Source of the DNA: Maribacter sp. HTCC2170
GTDB lineage: Bacteria > Bacteroidota > Bacteroidia > Flavobacteriales > Flavobacteriaceae
Direction of reading: 5' to 3'
Length of the DNA: 64,000 nucleotides
NCBI RefSeq assembly: GCF_000153165.2
Contig: NC_014472.1
Location: forward strand, 1,795,501-1,859,500
The notes below the pieces were generated by a model. That model saw only the letters and a program-made list of their open reading frames with translations, did not search any database and was not told the DNA's origin. Of the stretch, positions 1-6,893 are shown in pieces. Every line of letters starts with the position of its first letter. The stretch's first letter is position 1. Made by a program: the position numbers and the translations under genes.

Positions 1-444
1 CGTCAAGCCGGTAACTTTGGATATCTCTTTATAAGGCAGTTGCTCCAAATAAAGTGTGATGACTGCTTTATCGGCTTCGTTGAGTTGTTTGATGCATTTT
101 CGTAATTGTAAAAGTTGACCATGCCTTTCTTGATCATCTTCCGTAGCGATTTCAGTTTTGTGAAAGTGAATGGCTTGACTGTTCATTCGTAACATCTTCT
201 TTTTCCTCTTTATTTCCTTTGTTTTTAATCGAAGACAAACGTTCAAGGTAATCCGGAACATCCATGTACCCATCGAGGAATTCCCTTTGAAAGAAGGCAT
301 TGATTTCCAGATATGAATCAAAACTTCTTGAAAAAGGTCTTTGGTGTCTTCAGTATCTTTGCCATAAACAGAGCAAATCCTGAAGAGTTTCTGCTGGTTT
401 TGCTCCAAGGTCTTCAGAAAGGTGGTTTCAAGTGTTTCGTTCAT
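1..444 (-). CDS. ECF-type RNA polymerase sigma factor, C-terminus cut by the window edge
   Basis: The reverse complement reads from an ATG at 442-444 without a stop to base 1 (148 codons visible). Region 2 is visible early (residues about 15-60: LFRICSVYGKDTEDTKDLFQEV, then a W-K-S-M-P-S-F-K-G segment) and a region-4 helix-turn-helix begins near the end (LPYKEISKVTGLT). The short region 2 to region 4 layout is that of ECF (sigma-70 family group 4) factors, which direct RNA polymerase to a stress or transport regulon and are usually held by an anti-sigma factor encoded next to them. That partner would lie left of the window. Family is clear; the regulon cannot be told from this sequence. Confidence 0.88.
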   Translation of the reverse strand, partial: MNETLETTFLKTLEQNQQKLFRICSVYGKDTEDTKDLFQEVLIHIWKSMPSFKGNSSMGTWMFRITLNVCLRLKTKEIKRKKKMLRMNSQAIHFHKTEIATEDDQERHGQLLQLRKCIKQLNEADKAVITLYLEQLPYKEISKVTGLT

Positions 445-1540: not shown

Positions 1541-2344
1541 ATGAACAACTTTTTAGTCAATGTCGAATGGTTAAATACTCATCTTAAAGAGCCCAACATG
1601 GTAGTTCTTGATGCAAGTCAACCCAGTAGTCCTTCAGAACCAATAAGCATTCCTGGCGCTCGCGTCTTTGACCTAAAAAACACTTTTAGCGATACAAGTT
1701 CTGAATACCCAAATACCTTTCCTTTAGTTGAACAATTTGAACGGGAAAGTAGAAGATTGGGTATAAACAAGAAAAGTAAGGTCGTGGTGTATGACAATCG
1801 TGGCATCTATTTTAGTCCTAGGGTCTGGTGGATGTTTAAAGTTATGGGGCATGAGAATGTAGCCGTTTTGGATGGTGGTTTGCCAGAATGGGAACAACAA
1901 GGATTTAAAACTGAAACTAGAAAAACCATCAAATATGCAATCGGTGATTTCACTGCTTCATTGCAGCCTAATGTGTTGAAGAACTTTGATTTTGTTTTAA
2001 AGAATATAGATCAAGAAGAAAGTTTGGTTGTAGATGCGCGCTCCGCTGGTCGTTTTAATGGAACAGCTCCAGAACCTAGAAAGGGTTTACGAAGTGGGAG
2101 TATTCCAAAATCCATGAACATACCTTACGAGACCTTACTCGAAAATGGCAAATTCAAAAACAAAGAGGGACTTCTAGAAATCTTTGGCAAGAAAGAGTTG
2201 GGTGATCAACCTTTGGTCTTTAGTTGTGGGTCTGGTGTTACGGCCTGTATTGTTTTATTGGCTACGGAACTGGCCGGACTTAACAATGAAAAAGGAGTTT
2301 TTGACGGTTCTTGGACCGAATGGGCGCAAAGAACTGATTCATAA
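1541..2344 (+). CDS. sseA: Thiosulfate/3-mercaptopyruvate sulfurtransferase (two-rhodanese-domain)
   Basis: 267 residues, the usual length for tandem rhodanese-domain sulfurtransferases. The N-terminal inactive rhodanese domain spans about residues 5-130 (LDASQPSSP, VVVYDNRGIYFSPRVWW) and the catalytic one about 150-265. The active-site loop is C-G-S-G-V-T-A with the persulfide-forming cysteine at residue 229; this CGSGVTA form is typical of 3-mercaptopyruvate sulfurtransferases, whereas thiosulfate-preferring rhodaneses have CRKGVT. The enzyme moves sulfane sulfur from 3-mercaptopyruvate or thiosulfate to a thiol acceptor or cyanide in the cytosol. The gene follows the toroid protein by 30 bases; it is the last large gene before the repeat region. 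Confidence 0.9.
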   Translation: MNNFLVNVEWLNTHLKEPNMVVLDASQPSSPSEPISIPGARVFDLKNTFSDTSSEYPNTFPLVEQFERESRRLGINKKSKVVVYDNRGIYFSPRVWWMFKVMGHENVAVLDGGLPEWEQQGFKTETRKTIKYAIGDFTASLQPNVLKNFDFVLKNIDQEESLVVDARSAGRFNGTAPEPRKGLRSGSIPKSMNIPYETLLENGKFKNKEGLLEIFGKKELGDQPLVFSCGSGVTACIVLLATELAGLNNEKGVFDGSWTEWAQRTDS

Positions 2345-2427
2345 AATGCAAAAGGAGATAAACTATATTTAGCTTACCTCCTTATGTTTTGATTGATGAA
2401 AGTATATTGGGGGAAAATTCGCCGTGA

Positions 2428-2544
2428 TTAGTGGCTATATTTTTGGTCTGTTGCCCATCTTATTCTTTTACTGGCGTTGAAACTTGAAAGAAAGGCATTC
2501 TTTTTTGATTGGGTGGGGAACTGATTGGTGATGGTGGTTGTCAT
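2428..2544 (-). CDS. Small basic peptide, diverged member of tandem family (38 aa)
   Basis: A 38-codon ATG-to-TAA frame, last in transcription order of a minus-strand array. The peptide aligns with the three near-identical copies to its right after a single one-residue gap: shared Met1, Thr4, Ile5, P-T-Q, F/L-S-x-F, S-K-R-[VI]-x-W and the Tyr near the end. It carries the core S-K-R-I-R-W at residues 25-30 and is strongly basic with one acidic residue. Nucleotide similarity to the other copies is low, yet frame, start, stop region and core motif are kept, which suggests that it is translated. No known family recognised. Confidence 0.6.
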   Translation of the reverse strand: MTTTITNQFPTQSKKNAFLSSFNASKRIRWATDQKYSH

Positions 2545-2591
2545 TAGTTCTGTTTTTTAGGTTGTATTGTTGTCTTTAGTCGTGTTACGAC

Positions 2592-2702
2592 TTATCTGTA
2601 ATTCCTACTTGCTGTCCAGCTTACTCTTTTGCTGTTCCTAAAGTTTGAAAAGATGGTTGATGTTCTTGCTTGTGTTGGTGTTGTGCCGATTGTTGCTCTC
2701 AT
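2592..2702 (-). CDS. Small basic peptide, tandem copy 3 in transcription order (36 aa)
   Basis: 36 codons from ATG (2700-2702) to TAA. The peptide begins MRATIGTTPTQ and carries the core S-K-R-V-S-W at residues 24-29. Compared with the two copies to its right it differs at four bases inside the frame: two are silent third-position changes (Ala12, Tyr35) and two fall in one codon (Ser6 to Gly). It has no Asp or Glu and eight or so Arg/Lys. No Shine-Dalgarno, as is normal in this phylum. Function unknown. Confidence 0.62.
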   Translation of the reverse strand: MRATIGTTPTQARTSTIFSNFRNSKRVSWTASRNYR

Positions 2703-2743
2703 GATGTCTTGTTTTAGATTGTTGTGTTGATCGTTGTTATTTC

Positions 2744-2854
2744 TTATCTATAATTCCTACTTGCTGTCCAGCTTACTCTTTTGCTGTTCCTAAAGTTTGA
2801 AAAGATGGTTGATGTTCTCGCTTGTGTTGGTGTTGTACTGATTGTTGCTCTCAT
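2744..2854 (-). CDS. Small basic peptide, tandem copy 2 in transcription order (36 aa)
   Basis: 36 codons, ATG at 2852-2854, TAA at 2744-2746. The coding sequence is identical to that of the copy at 2896-3006 and lies exactly 152 bases from it, so the duplication is recent. Peptide starts MRATISTTPTQ and holds the S-K-R-V-S-W core; it is cationic, without acidic residues, and has no signal peptide or membrane segment. Confidence 0.62.
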   Translation of the reverse strand: MRATISTTPTQARTSTIFSNFRNSKRVSWTASRNYR

Positions 2855-2895
2855 GATGTCTTGTTTTAGATTGTTGTGTTGATCGTTGTTATTTC

Positions 2896-3006
2896 TTATC
2901 TATAATTCCTACTTGCTGTCCAGCTTACTCTTTTGCTGTTCCTAAAGTTTGAAAAGATGGTTGATGTTCTCGCTTGTGTTGGTGTTGTACTGATTGTTGC
3001 TCTCAT
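2896..3006 (-). CDS. Small basic peptide, first copy of the tandem array (36 aa)
   Basis: 36 codons, ATG at 3004-3006 and TAA at 2896-2898. It is the promoter-proximal member: its leader is very A+T-rich (3010-3060), like the leaders of expressed genes in this phylum, and a 27-base palindrome lies about 70 bases upstream. Peptide begins MRATISTTPTQ, then has a F-S-N-F element at 18-21 and S-K-R-V-S-W at 24-29. No acidic residues. No family recognised; a DNA-, RNA- or membrane-binding peptide is only a guess from the charge. Confidence 0.65.
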   Translation of the reverse strand: MRATISTTPTQARTSTIFSNFRNSKRVSWTASRNYR

Positions 3007-3075
3007 GATTTATATTTTTAAATGTTAATAATTATTTGATTTATACTAACAAGACGACAACAATATTATTTTGTT

Positions 3076-3102
3076 ACAGTACTATGTAATAAATAGTACT
3101 GT
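3076..3102. promoter_or_regulatory. Perfect 10-base-arm palindrome upstream of the small-ORF array
   Basis: ACAGTACTAT, seven-base spacer, ATAGTACTGT. It sits 70 bases upstream of the first small ORF and 200 bases downstream of the fructokinase stop. No T-run follows on either strand, so an operator or RNA hairpin is more likely than an intrinsic terminator. Confidence 0.45.
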
Positions 3103-3302: not shown

Positions 3303-4250
3303 TTAATTTCCGAAAATAGCATCATGGGTTGGTAAAGAAGGTATGGCCCCAAAATTTGTGGTAGTGATGGCACCGGCGGCATTTGCTTTTTTAACCATTT
3401 CAATCAATAAATCCATATCCTTTAATATATCCATAGGATTGTGAATGGTAGATATTTGATAAAGCAGGCAACCAATAAAGGCATCTCCAGCACCGGTAGT
3501 ATCCACCGGGTTAACGCTAATGCTCGGAATGGTATGTTTTGAATTCTCTGTACTCAACAGTGTACCTTCGCCACCCAACGTAATAGCAATCACTGCAGTA
3601 CCAATTTCGTGTAAAACGGCACAACATTCCTCTAAATTGGTCTTTCCTGAAAGCAATTGTGCCTCCTCAAGACTAAATTTGCACAAATGCGCTTTTTGAA
3701 CAAAGGGCATACATTTTTTTATAAAGACTGCTTCTTCGCCTTTCCAAAGGTCCCCCCTAAAATTAGGATCAAAACTTATAAAAGCATTTTGTGTTAGGGC
3801 ATCAAAAAAGTAACGGCTATATGCAGATTCCAGGTCGCCACCCAATAGGGCAGTTGCAGCCCCAAAATGAACCATATTTTCTTTAAAACTTGTTTTTAGG
3901 CTAGAGTCGTACTTTAATTCCTTATCAGCACCACGACTAAAGACAAAATCACGTTCACCGTCTTCGGCGATAGAGACAAAGGCTATGGTAGTAAAACTTT
4001 TACAACGTTGGGTAAGGGTTATGTCCACATGGTTTTCATCCAACACATTCAATAAAAAAGAACCAAATTGATCATCACCAACGGCACCAATGAATTTACT
4101 TAAACCACCCAATTTGGCTATTGCACAAGCCACATTGGCTGGTGCTCCGCCAGCTTTTTTAGTAAATACATCTGCTTTGGAAAGATCATTGCCCTGCTTT
4201 TCAGCAACAAAATCGATGAGTAATTCCCCAATACAATACACCTTCTTCAT
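3303..4250 (-). CDS. PfkB-family sugar kinase, probably fructokinase
   Basis: 315 residues from the ATG at 4248-4250 (MKKVYCIGELLIDF). Ribokinase/PfkB fold: N-terminal G-E-L-L-I-D sugar-binding strand, the first signature around residues 30-45 (GGAPANVACAIAKLGG), and the second signature D-T-T-G-A-G-D-A-F with the catalytic base Asp256. It phosphorylates a furanose sugar, most likely fructose, with ATP in the cytosol; the exact sugar is inferred from overall resemblance to ScrK-type proteins. A frame extension to a TTG at 4274 exists, but a TACTTTTG promoter element overlaps it, so the ATG was chosen. It stands alone, without transporter or hydrolase neighbours. Confidence 0.82.
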   Translation of the reverse strand: MKKVYCIGELLIDFVAEKQGNDLSKADVFTKKAGGAPANVACAIAKLGGLSKFIGAVGDDQFGSFLLNVLDENHVDITLTQRCKSFTTIAFVSIAEDGERDFVFSRGADKELKYDSSLKTSFKENMVHFGAATALLGGDLESAYSRYFFDALTQNAFISFDPNFRGDLWKGEEAVFIKKCMPFVQKAHLCKFSLEEAQLLSGKTNLEECCAVLHEIGTAVIAITLGGEGTLLSTENSKHTIPSISVNPVDTTGAGDAFIGCLLYQISTIHNPMDILKDMDLLIEMVKKANAAGAITTTNFGAIPSLPTHDAIFGN

Positions 4251-4271
4251 AACCTCTATACTTTGTTGGAG

Positions 4272-4279
4272 CAAAAGTA
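4272..4279 (-). promoter_or_regulatory. Bacteroidota -7 element (TACTTTTG) for the fructokinase gene
   Basis: The minus strand reads TACTTTTG, matching TAnnTTTG. Transcription would start near 4266, leaving a leader of about 15 bases before the ATG at 4250. The -33 element is poor (a TTG two or three bases off the ideal spacing). Confidence 0.45.
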
Positions 4280-4349: not shown

Positions 4350-6893
4350 TTATCCGCACTTAGAAGAGCCACAATCCTTACATGTTAGGCAGCCCTCTTG
4401 ATAGATCAGGTTATTGGATTTACAATTATCGCATTTTTGACCTTTTGCAGCCGTACCATCGGCAACATACCTTTTAAGGGCGCGAGCGACTCCGTTTTTC
4501 CAAGTACTTATAGATTCACCTTCCAATTGTAAACTATTGATCAAATCAACTATTTTTTCAATTGGCATGCCATGACGTAGTGTACTTGAAATTAACTTGG
4601 CATAGTTCCAATACTCAGGATTGAATTTTTGCGATAGACCTTCAATAGTGGTTTTGTAACCTCTTTTGTTTTTATATTGAAAATCATAACGCGAAGTGCC
4701 ATCTTCTTCTCTGTTTTTAATGATAAGACCATTTTCTGCCCAACGAGGAATCAAAATACCATCTTCATCATCAGAGAGTCCAGTGAAAATCTCATAGGGT
4801 TGGTCATCGACAAGACCTATAAAGGCAATCCATTTTTCCTTATTGTTCTGAAAACGTACTACATCTGCTTCTAGCACTTGCGGGCGTTTAGTTGGGAAAT
4901 GCGTCAATGTTTCTTCAGCTTCCGGCTCATTGGAAATCAATACACCAGACCTGGAACCATCGCGATAAACGGTAACACCTTTACATCCTGCTTTCCAGGC
5001 TTCCAAATACAATTTTCCCACTAAGTCTTCCTGAACTTCATTTGGCAGGTTAATTGTAACACTAATAGAGTGGTCTACCCATTTTTGAACGCCACCTTGA
5101 AGACGTACTTTACTCAACCAATCCACGTCATTGGAGGTTGCCTTATAATAAGGAGATTTCTTAACTATTTTATCTAATTCTACTTGGCTGTAGGATTTAT
5201 TGGTATCAATACCATTAACCTCCATCCATTGTCTGAATCTATGATGAAAGACCACATATTCTTCCCATGAATCACCCACTTCGTCAACAAAAGTCACATT
5301 AACGTTCTTGTCATTGGGGTTTACCTTTCTTCTACGTTTATAAACCGGAAGAAAAACTGGCTCTATTCCCGAGGTGGTTTGGGTCATTAAACTGGTTGTG
5401 CCAGTAGGTGCAATTGTCAAAAGGGCAATATTTCTACGACCATATTCCAACATTTCATAATACAGTTTTTCGTCAGCTTCTTTTAGGCGAAGGATAAAAG
5501 GATTTTCTTTTTCCCTTTCTGCATCAAAAATCTCGAATGCTCCACGATCTTTAGCAGCATGAACAGAAGCTCTATATGCTTCCAAGGCAATATTCTTATG
5601 TACTTCAATCGAAAACTCATTGGCTTCCTCACTTCCATAGCGAAGACCTAAAGCTGCCAACATATCGCCTTCTGCAGTAATGCCTATTCCCGTTCTTCTG
5701 CCTTTTATTGCTTTTTCCTTAATGTTCTCCCATAGGCTTATTTCTACCGATTTAGTTTCTTCCAACTCAGGATCCGCCATGATTTTTTCCAAGATGCCAT
5801 CGACTTTTTCAAGTTCAAGGTCAATGATGTCATCCATTATGCGCTGGGCCAATGCAATATGTTTTTTGAAAAGCGGGAAATTAAACGATGCATCTTTGGT
5901 GAATGGTTGATCAACATAAGAGAAAAGATTGATGGCCAACAAACGACAAGAATCATAAGGGCATAATGGAATCTCTCCACACGGATTGGTAGAAACTGTT
6001 TTATATCCTAGATCAGCATAGCAATCAGGTACCGATTCGTTGATGATCGTATCCCAAAATAAGATGCCTGGCTCAGCAGATTTCCATGCATTGTGTACAA
6101 TCTTATCCCATAGCTTATTGGCCTCTATTTCATTTGTAAATCTTGGGTTGTCACTATGTATAGGAAATTTTTGTGTGTAATTCGTATTGTTGTCCACCGC
6201 CTTCATAAAATCATCATCTATACGAACCGATACGTTGGCGCCAGTCACTTTGCCTTGTTCCATTTTGGCATCGATAAAGTCTTCTGCGTCTGGGTGGTTG
6301 ATAGAAACAGAAAGCATCAAGGCACCACGACGCCCATCTTGAGCTACTTCACGGGTAGAATTTGAATAACGCTCCATAAAAGGCACCAACCCTGTTGAGG
6401 TCAAAGCCGAATTTTTTACCGCTGAACCTTTTGGTCGTATATGCGAAAGGTCGTGACCCACGCCACCACGACGCTTCATTAATTGTACCTGTTCTTGGTC
6501 TATTTTCATGATTCCACCGTAAGAATCTGATTTACCATCAGTACCGATTACGAAACAATTGGAAAGAGAAGCAATTTGATAAGGATTCCCAATACCGGCC
6601 ATAGGACTTCCTTGAGGTACGATGTATTTAAAGTTTTTGATTAGGTCATAAACTTCTTTTTCGGTTAAGGGGTTGGGATATTTTTGTTCAACCCTACTGA
6701 TCTCTTTTGCAATTCTATAATGCATGTCATCCGGATTCATTTCATAGAGATTTCCTTCAGAATCTTTTAATGCATATTTATTGATCCAAACTTGAGCGGC
6801 TAGATCATCGCCTTTAAAATAGGCCAAACTAGATTGGTATGCTTCTTCTTGCGTATACGTTTTTCTTTTAGCGGGGATGGTTTTTACTGACAT
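4350..6893 (-). CDS. nrdJ: Adenosylcobalamin-dependent (class II) ribonucleotide reductase
   Basis: 847 residues. It converts ribonucleotides to deoxyribonucleotides using the adenosylcobalamin radical, with no oxygen requirement. Visible signatures: S-N-C-F-V-I-G (first redox cysteine region, about residue 112), RRGGVGHDLSHIRP (about 140-153), N-P-C-G-E with the thiyl-radical cysteine Cys305, I-A-P-T-G-T-T-S (about 495-502), and a C-terminal extension that ends in paired C-x2-C and C-x2-C motifs (zinc-ribbon type, about 825-847) used to pass reducing equivalents. Long class II enzymes with this tail are common in Flavobacteriaceae. No cobalamin riboswitch was recognised upstream; the upstream region instead carries an ATGACAAATGTCAT palindrome. 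Confidence 0.95.
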   Translation of the reverse strand: MSVKTIPAKRKTYTQEEAYQSSLAYFKGDDLAAQVWINKYALKDSEGNLYEMNPDDMHYRIAKEISRVEQKYPNPLTEKEVYDLIKNFKYIVPQGSPMAGIGNPYQIASLSNCFVIGTDGKSDSYGGIMKIDQEQVQLMKRRGGVGHDLSHIRPKGSAVKNSALTSTGLVPFMERYSNSTREVAQDGRRGALMLSVSINHPDAEDFIDAKMEQGKVTGANVSVRIDDDFMKAVDNNTNYTQKFPIHSDNPRFTNEIEANKLWDKIVHNAWKSAEPGILFWDTIINESVPDCYADLGYKTVSTNPCGEIPLCPYDSCRLLAINLFSYVDQPFTKDASFNFPLFKKHIALAQRIMDDIIDLELEKVDGILEKIMADPELEETKSVEISLWENIKEKAIKGRRTGIGITAEGDMLAALGLRYGSEEANEFSIEVHKNIALEAYRASVHAAKDRGAFEIFDAEREKENPFILRLKEADEKLYYEMLEYGRRNIALLTIAPTGTTSLMTQTTSGIEPVFLPVYKRRRKVNPNDKNVNVTFVDEVGDSWEEYVVFHHRFRQWMEVNGIDTNKSYSQVELDKIVKKSPYYKATSNDVDWLSKVRLQGGVQKWVDHSISVTINLPNEVQEDLVGKLYLEAWKAGCKGVTVYRDGSRSGVLISNEPEAEETLTHFPTKRPQVLEADVVRFQNNKEKWIAFIGLVDDQPYEIFTGLSDDEDGILIPRWAENGLIIKNREEDGTSRYDFQYKNKRGYKTTIEGLSQKFNPEYWNYAKLISSTLRHGMPIEKIVDLINSLQLEGESISTWKNGVARALKRYVADGTAAKGQKCDNCKSNNLIYQEGCLTCKDCGSSKCG

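Follow-up and report, generated by a model that had tools for sequence, protein, structure and literature searches.

ECF sigma promoters combine an AAC-type -35 element with a CGTC-type -10 element. Among small proteins, the type I toxins Ldr and Ibs are hydrophobic peptides of the membrane that are paired with an antisense RNA, and SRA and THX are small basic ribosome-associated proteins. For F. psychrophilum, the ECF-type motif SM6, having a CGT -10 box and being induced in low nutrients, is described as preceding an ECF/anti-sigma pair, type IX secretion genes and the putative regulatory RNA Rfp11, which is named among the RNAs with strong predicted structure and conservation in other species (PMC9723704). 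In P. gingivalis, two operons composed of ECF sigma, hypothetical and DUF4252 genes are reported to be upregulated in the PG_0686 mutant, with a stronger effect under peroxide (PMC10101095), and growth and survival of the PG0985 mutant are reported to be reduced in peroxide (PMC9862357).

The array of micro-ORFs described here shares features with each of these systems and differs from all of them. The Ldr/Ibs arrays of enterobacteria likewise consist of tandem tiny ORFs, whereas the peptides analysed here are basic and hydrophilic, show none of the hydrophobic character of these toxins and are encoded behind an ECF-type promoter. SRA and THX are alike in size and charge; in contrast to them, our peptides have no match among PDB sequences up to an E-value of 1, are encoded in tandem in multiple copies and have no known ribosomal site. 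Like the array, the SM6 regulon has a flavobacterial promoter of ECF type with CGT as its -10 box, and it includes an ECF sigma/anti-sigma pair and a short RNA; the passages on SM6 and Rfp11, with which we compare by description, treat the latter as RNA and mention neither micro-ORFs nor a palindrome or an array (PMC9723704). The P. gingivalis operons PG0985-PG0987 and PG0214-PG0216, likened by layout, show the same arrangement of genes as the sigma operon that we link to the array, and micro-ORF arrays are not part of the description of the ECF-hypothetical-DUF4252 operons of Bacteroidota in the sections of these reports dealing with them (PMC10101095, PMC10434189). Our searches of open-access full text found no description of such micro-ORF arrays.

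The window, i.e. the whole stretch of 64,000 nucleotides analysed here, originates from Maribacter sp. HTCC2170, whose genome is one 3.87-Mb contig. The array lies in a gap of 958 nt, bounded by a rhodanese-domain gene (1541-2344, plus strand), which is downstream of and convergent with it, and by a PfkB-type kinase gene (3303-4274, minus strand). All four micro-ORFs are on the minus strand: micro-ORF 1 (2896-3006, 36 aa), nearest to the promoter and coding for a peptide with family matches that we call type A, micro-ORF 2 (2744-2854, 36 aa) with the same coding DNA, micro-ORF 3 (2592-2702, 36 aa) with a single residue changed from Ser to Gly, and micro-ORF 4 (2428-2544, 38 aa), a diverged family member matched by the profile with an E-value of 9.6e-16. 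The first three are embedded in minus-strand repeat units of 152 nt, each comprising ORF and spacer (2566-2717, 2718-2869 and 2870-3021, together 2566-3021), with spacings of 152 and 152 nt and an identity to the first unit of 91% for the second and 88% for the third; Tandem Repeats Finder reports 2591-3009 with a period of 152, 2.8 copies and 98% matches. A sequence-only reading had described four ORFs of 36-38 codons, three of them at an exact 152-nt period, in agreement with the ORF positions and unit spacings, and had placed the array at 2428-3009, of which the start holds and the end does not, the ORFs stopping at 3006. Its view of the fourth ORF as a relative is borne out by a protein alignment working after a one-residue gap, and all four ORFs fit the type A profile of ~37 aa with S-K-R-[VI]-x-W near the C-terminus. 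Equally accurate was its account of the coding differences, micro-ORF 3 differing from micro-ORFs 1 and 2 by four bases, two of them silent (Ala, Tyr) and two falling within one codon, and of basic peptides having zero or one acidic residue (none in the three near-identical copies, one in the micro-ORF 4 peptide) and lacking a signal peptide, as no signal-peptide-like hydrophobic stretch is present.

Upstream of the array we identified an AAC-type -35 and a CGT-type -10 element at ECF spacing, the sequence TGTAAC-N16-CGTCT (3052-3078, minus strand) being the sole exact match in the window and occurring in 0 of 100 shuffles; the sequence-only reading had made no mention of a control region. A palindrome (3076-3102), reading ACAGTACTAT...ATAGTACTGT on the minus strand, overlaps the -35 element and is likely the binding site of a putative second regulator. 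At the other side, a terminator-like hairpin of 14 pairs (2352-2383, minus strand) likely forms the end of the array transcript. The likely unit would thereby be larger than the ORFs, extending from promoter and palindrome (3052-3102) through the terminator-like hairpin (2352-2383).

We show by comparison of genomes that the micro-ORFs belong to a peptide family under selection. With the 36-aa peptide as query, nine matches were obtained in the own genome, and a 22-row profile detects ten copies at four places, none having an internal stop: the window array, C1:2854790-2855214 (three copies), C1:3451190-3451439 (two) and C1:3847826-3847933 (one). At an E-value of 0.1, type A matches occur in 13 of 60 genomes, the own genome counted, with just one of the matches listed containing internal stops; one of the 13, G049, is not counted as a member, its match sitting inside a 359-aa frame. 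The profile search at an E-value of 0.001 finds type A in 59 of 397 Flavobacteriaceae genomes and 38 of 237 genera, the E-values of close members being flattering because the profiles were made from their own hits. A scan of named genomes yielded 71 loci, mostly from Maribacter, Eudoraea, Robiginitalea, Muriicola, Saonia, Ulvibacterium and other Flavobacteriaceae. A weak, longer match in a metagenome-assembled genome labelled Acidobacteria (L138) is probably due to chance or contamination and was not counted. The 244 type A copies correspond to 187 distinct peptides, of which 183 contain Trp and 154 are exactly 37 aa long, with a mean net charge of +6.4 (range +3 to +9) and a median GRAVY of -1.19. 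The highest hydropathy over 15 residues is 0.57, and type A peptides therefore have no membrane segment. Array sizes range from single (21 of the 73 counted) over double (18), triple (24) and quadruple (6) to quintuple (4), some being clipped by contig ends, and in 51 multi-copy arrays the copies are in one orientation behind one promoter. One copy (L059:1653-1787) carries a short in-frame insert, LPTGQAG, near the N-terminus, perhaps a small repeat insertion.

The NG86 dN/dS ratio of type A has a median of 0.196 over 1906 same-length, non-independent pairs (identity at least 60%, dS 0.3-1.5) and exceeds 1 in none, and differences amount to 14696, 11906 and 30867 at first, second and third codon positions; the set used for selection omits peptides longer than 45 aa, those containing X and those whose DNA does not translate to the listed peptide. 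The proposal of selected peptides in place of a plain repeat is upheld by the presence of the family in other genomes, by its constant length and by this ratio. Frames breaking in relatives at the rate of random DNA, named beforehand as an observation speaking against the proposal, were not seen, the frames being held and 154/187 peptides keeping 37 aa. The family had not been recognised in the sequence-only reading and is indeed unnamed in the Pfam, NCBIfam, PHROGs, PADLOC and PDB libraries.

Searches of Rfam, Pfam, NCBIfam, PHROGs, PADLOC and PDB sequences gave no convincing relative of the micro-ORF peptides or the array. Rfam produced five matches, none near its gathering score; PADLOC returned 0 families for 6 peptides; and PDB sequences, including ribosomal and ribosome-associated proteins, contained 0 chains up to an E-value of 1 for either profile. 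Three candidates were discarded: NCBIfam NF047934 (GapS4b; 2/50 members, best E-value 0.0053), not taken as real, and, both too weak, a RepB leader (1/50 members, E-value 0.065) and a PHROG of unknown function for a 44-aa peptide type (E-value 0.33). With PADLOC at 0 and the GapS4b matches discounted, nothing indicates a role in anti-phage defence, and an origin from phages or plasmids is unsupported at the sensitivity of the search, because no relative was found in viral contigs, phages and plasmids. AlphaFold predicted from the single sequence one helix at residues 9-35, with a pLDDT of 76 for the best model and 50-59 for the other four, and with 50 relatives gave no confident fold (pLDDT 61.5, pTM 0.18). 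This predicted absence of a stable fold fits a peptide folding on a partner and proves nothing.

We clustered 624 neighbour proteins and compared 82 of 92 representatives with Pfam. Array neighbours differ by lineage, the commonest being an EF-G-like GTPase (25 loci, e.g. L070:6387-8495), which we read as chromosome context because it is encoded opposite to the array in every case and lies either up- or downstream of it. The genes downstream of the arrays are variable and in many cases run in the other direction, as not expected for a leader peptide or attenuator, with an exception: a putative ExbD-like gene follows the micro-ORFs on the same strand in 11 of 30 loci found through the promoter (L155, L157, L158, L162-L164, L167, L168, L171, L178 and L181).

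The promoter is conserved and linked to the arrays. Of 71 type A arrays, 59 have TGTWAC-N16-CGTC in the 420 nt preceding them, compared to 325 of 20000 random pieces from the same loci, a control including real promoter sites, with L138 left out and three arrays having too little upstream sequence excluded. The upstream consensus of type A across genera is AAAtaGTACctTTTtataCATAGTACTGTAACAAaa-N..-CGTCTatTaagTgTAAgt. The promoter is absent at 12/71 arrays, ten of these being single-copy, including two of the own genome's four places; promoter with palindrome is present at the two others. Four single copies without the promoter (L009, L068, L069 and L130) have TTTGTCCTGTAA in common, located ~30-50 nt before the ATG, possibly the promoter of another sigma factor. 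Genome-wide, TGTAAC-N16-CGTCTW has 8 exact matches (reversed control 1), i.e. two arrays, one sigma gene and five elsewhere. The latter (G000:C1:484752, 1306554, 2488932, 3265394 and 3834654) may be due to chance or represent other regulon members.

The promoter marks a class wider than type A. Combined with the palindrome (at most 1 mismatch) it occurs in 148/397 genomes and 102/237 genera, the reversed control giving 0 among the matches listed, and the promoter pattern was found in 0/15 genomes of other families, with the own-genome control being found. Read by eye, micro-ORFs follow in 41 of 43 promoter-found loci (30/30 and 11/13), starting within ~140 nt of the -10 element; a longer secreted-type protein at L246 and a receptor-like protein at L251 are the exceptions, and L249 shows four repeated micro-ORFs without Trp. 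A micro-ORF with the W-motif is present within 420 nt at 101 of 105 distinct promoter instances versus 212 of 2988 random places, many of these loci having been found through the peptides and sites with less than 200 nt downstream being skipped. The corresponding peptide of many genera, type C (MRTLNNNQLTGTL..SK..WNTKRRYR), has 28 aa and is frequently doubled, and in many cases a peptide of 44 aa with an end like W-K-G-T-K-R-Y-A-H comes after it. Its profile matches in 131/395 genomes, and the median dN/dS is 0.39 over 379 pairs, 2% exceeding 1. Type A or C is present in 182/397 genomes, some of the matches being weak (E-values 1e-4 to 1e-3), 135 with and 47 without a promoter match; a promoter match alone is present in 13. 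Reading 12 of these 13 (all except G081) revealed further kinds of micro-ORFs in 11 and none in G254; in G386, micro-ORFs are present at one of two promoter sites. Types A and C have S-K-x3-W-x3-R-x-[YF] in common, and HHalign aligns the SKxxxW...R.Y segments of both profiles with 20% probability and an E-value of 0.0012, which as a comparison of profiles is suggestive of common descent and not a proof. As a separate observation, a ..RPRIYF..GFGWNTDRLYD.. peptide commonly precedes type A in Maribacter and relatives, its micro-ORF lying between promoter and type A array in L010 (~5230-5345, minus strand), L070-L074 and L096-L098; the L010 peptide has no match in Pfam, PHROGs and PADLOC.

The same promoter precedes one sigma gene. 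Among the 23 sigma-70 region-2 genes of the own genome, one has the strict promoter upstream and six fit a looser pattern, two of which are close to the strict form (L217, L220), so that a second sigma factor could share the promoter. The strict-promoter gene (C1:3339575-3340081) is followed by a 139-aa ORF without a Pfam match, by its position a putative anti-sigma factor, and by three DUF4252 genes. The motif re-found the sigma gene in 25 of 30 loci (not in L203, L208, L209, L210 and L212), and 23 of these 25, the own gene included, have the promoter, L191 being without it and L207 having a one-base variant. The palindrome was not seen at the sigma gene, neither at the own gene nor in the orthologue loci. 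A sigma orthologue is present at an E-value of 1e-40 in 337/395 genomes, namely in 181/181 genomes with type A or C, and type A or C occurs in 0/58 genomes lacking it, the two genomes missing compared to the set of 397 being assumed to be G427 and G428. Three sigma-lacking genomes have the promoter with other micro-ORFs, i.e. G065 (complete), G112 (81% complete) and G407 (76% complete). The Fisher values of 6e-18 and 9e-49 overstate the case, because many sigma-lacking genomes are small or incomplete (about 12/58 have at least 2.5 Mb) and all share ancestry; the co-occurrence across genomes is thus supportive but confounded.

Some further observations concern sigma factors. In G065 (L254), G290 (L247) and G341 (L250) the -10 element reads AGTC, not CGTC; G065 has no sigma orthologue at an E-value of 1e-40, those of G290 and G341 are rather diverged, and G144, of the same genus as G341, has CGTC with an equally diverged sigma factor. 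A co-evolution of -10 element and sigma factor is only a thought. Two other ECF sigma genes of the own genome are located ~2 kb from the array (window 217-405, minus strand) and from a single copy (C1:3845658-3845861). The array-adjacent ECF genes (window 217-405 and near the copy in L009) were dropped as candidates for the cognate sigma factor, because they are different paralogues in different loci.

What the unit produces can be explained in several ways. The main rival to a role of the peptides is a regulatory RNA locus in which the ORFs are incidental, and Rfp11, being listed under SM6, predicted to be strongly structured and conserved in other species as far as the description of these RNAs goes, could be its counterpart (PMC9723704). 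This pure RNA role is difficult to reconcile with the selection seen at codon level (median dN/dS 0.196 for type A and 0.39 for type C). The predicted 702-nt RNA does not stand out in stability against 20 shuffles (z -1.28), the strongest hairpin that it forms being the terminator-like one, with no Rfam match near the gathering score; not every sRNA is structured, and we regard this explanation as unlikely. We judge just as unlikely a dual-function RNA, in which the same transcript would encode a selected microprotein and act by base-pairing: the conserved promoter, the short predicted transcript and its terminator-like end would suit it, while the z-score gives no structure signal.

Less probable still are precursors of secreted or modified peptides, be it RiPP-like, antimicrobial or signalling ones, as which small, basic, multi-copy peptides with variable N-termini might be taken. 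A split into leader and core is not apparent and conservation reaches near the C-terminus, the low maximal hydropathy leaves no signal-peptide-like stretch, the neighbours vary by lineage, and no RiPP maturase was recognised in the commonest 25 of 120 neighbour Pfam families. The tiny ORFs in tandem also recall type I toxin arrays such as Ldr or Ibs, an explanation we consider very improbable given the GRAVY and net charge of the peptides and the absent PADLOC match. Hardly credible is finally a spreading non-coding repeat with frames open by chance. The 152-nt units are near-identical in the window and several places per genome are occupied, and the recent three-fold duplication in the window is real; as a general explanation the repeat is opposed by the codon-level selection, by DNA diverging across genera with length and motif being kept, and by the single orientation behind one promoter.

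We favour, with a probability of roughly 0.62, the reading of the array as encoding ECF-controlled, probably stress-induced basic microproteins with copy number setting the dose. In this model, the array would constitute a single transcription unit of an ECF sigma regulon. The DUF4252-linked sigma factor would become active, probably when the cell meets envelope, oxidative or nutrient stress, and transcribe the array using the TGTAAC-N16-CGTCT promoter (3052-3078), and a second regulator would act at the palindrome overlapping the promoter. The published peroxide data on the P. gingivalis operons and the low-nutrient induction of SM6 fit this model. Judged from promoter and genome comparisons, transcription of the array by this sigma factor is likely, and translation of the micro-ORFs very likely given the selection on their codons. 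The four ORFs would yield strongly basic, hydrophilic peptides of 36-38 residues with no stable fold predicted, for which the data make a stress role fairly probable. The peptides may bind a negatively charged partner via the conserved S-K-R-[VI]-x-W-x3-R-x-[YF] segment, RNA or the ribosome being the first guess and RNA polymerase or the inner face of the envelope the next; we guess the target from charge and composition, and binding to a polyanion or the ribosome accordingly a tentative proposal. Tandem duplication would set the peptide dose.

More speculatively, Flavobacteriaceae might possess an undescribed class of stress microproteins, controlled by an ECF sigma factor and a palindrome regulator, encoded in arrays tuned by copy number, composed of basic peptides of ~26-45 residues with a common W-x3-[RK]-x-[YF] and acting on one cellular machine. 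The families placed in this proposed class are the SKRVxW, the WNxKRRY, the 44-residue and the GFGWNTDRLYD type. The C-terminal element and a shared machine, for instance the ribosome or RNA polymerase, belong to this joint reading and are put forward with the same reserve.

The generic kind, a sigma-controlled small-protein operon, is known already; neither the peptide family nor its arrangement in arrays nor the combination of promoter and palindrome was found named in the libraries searched or described in the open-access full text searched. A layer of tiny proteins thus seems to have been missed so far. Because the promoter identifies the class without reference to the peptide sequences, it can serve to find microproteins that lack annotation. 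The short RNAs described for flavobacteria merit re-reading for tiny ORFs. Our data connect a conserved ECF sigma factor, encoded alongside DUF4252 genes, with a defined group of likely targets, whereby the question of what this flavobacterial sigma factor controls becomes directly testable.
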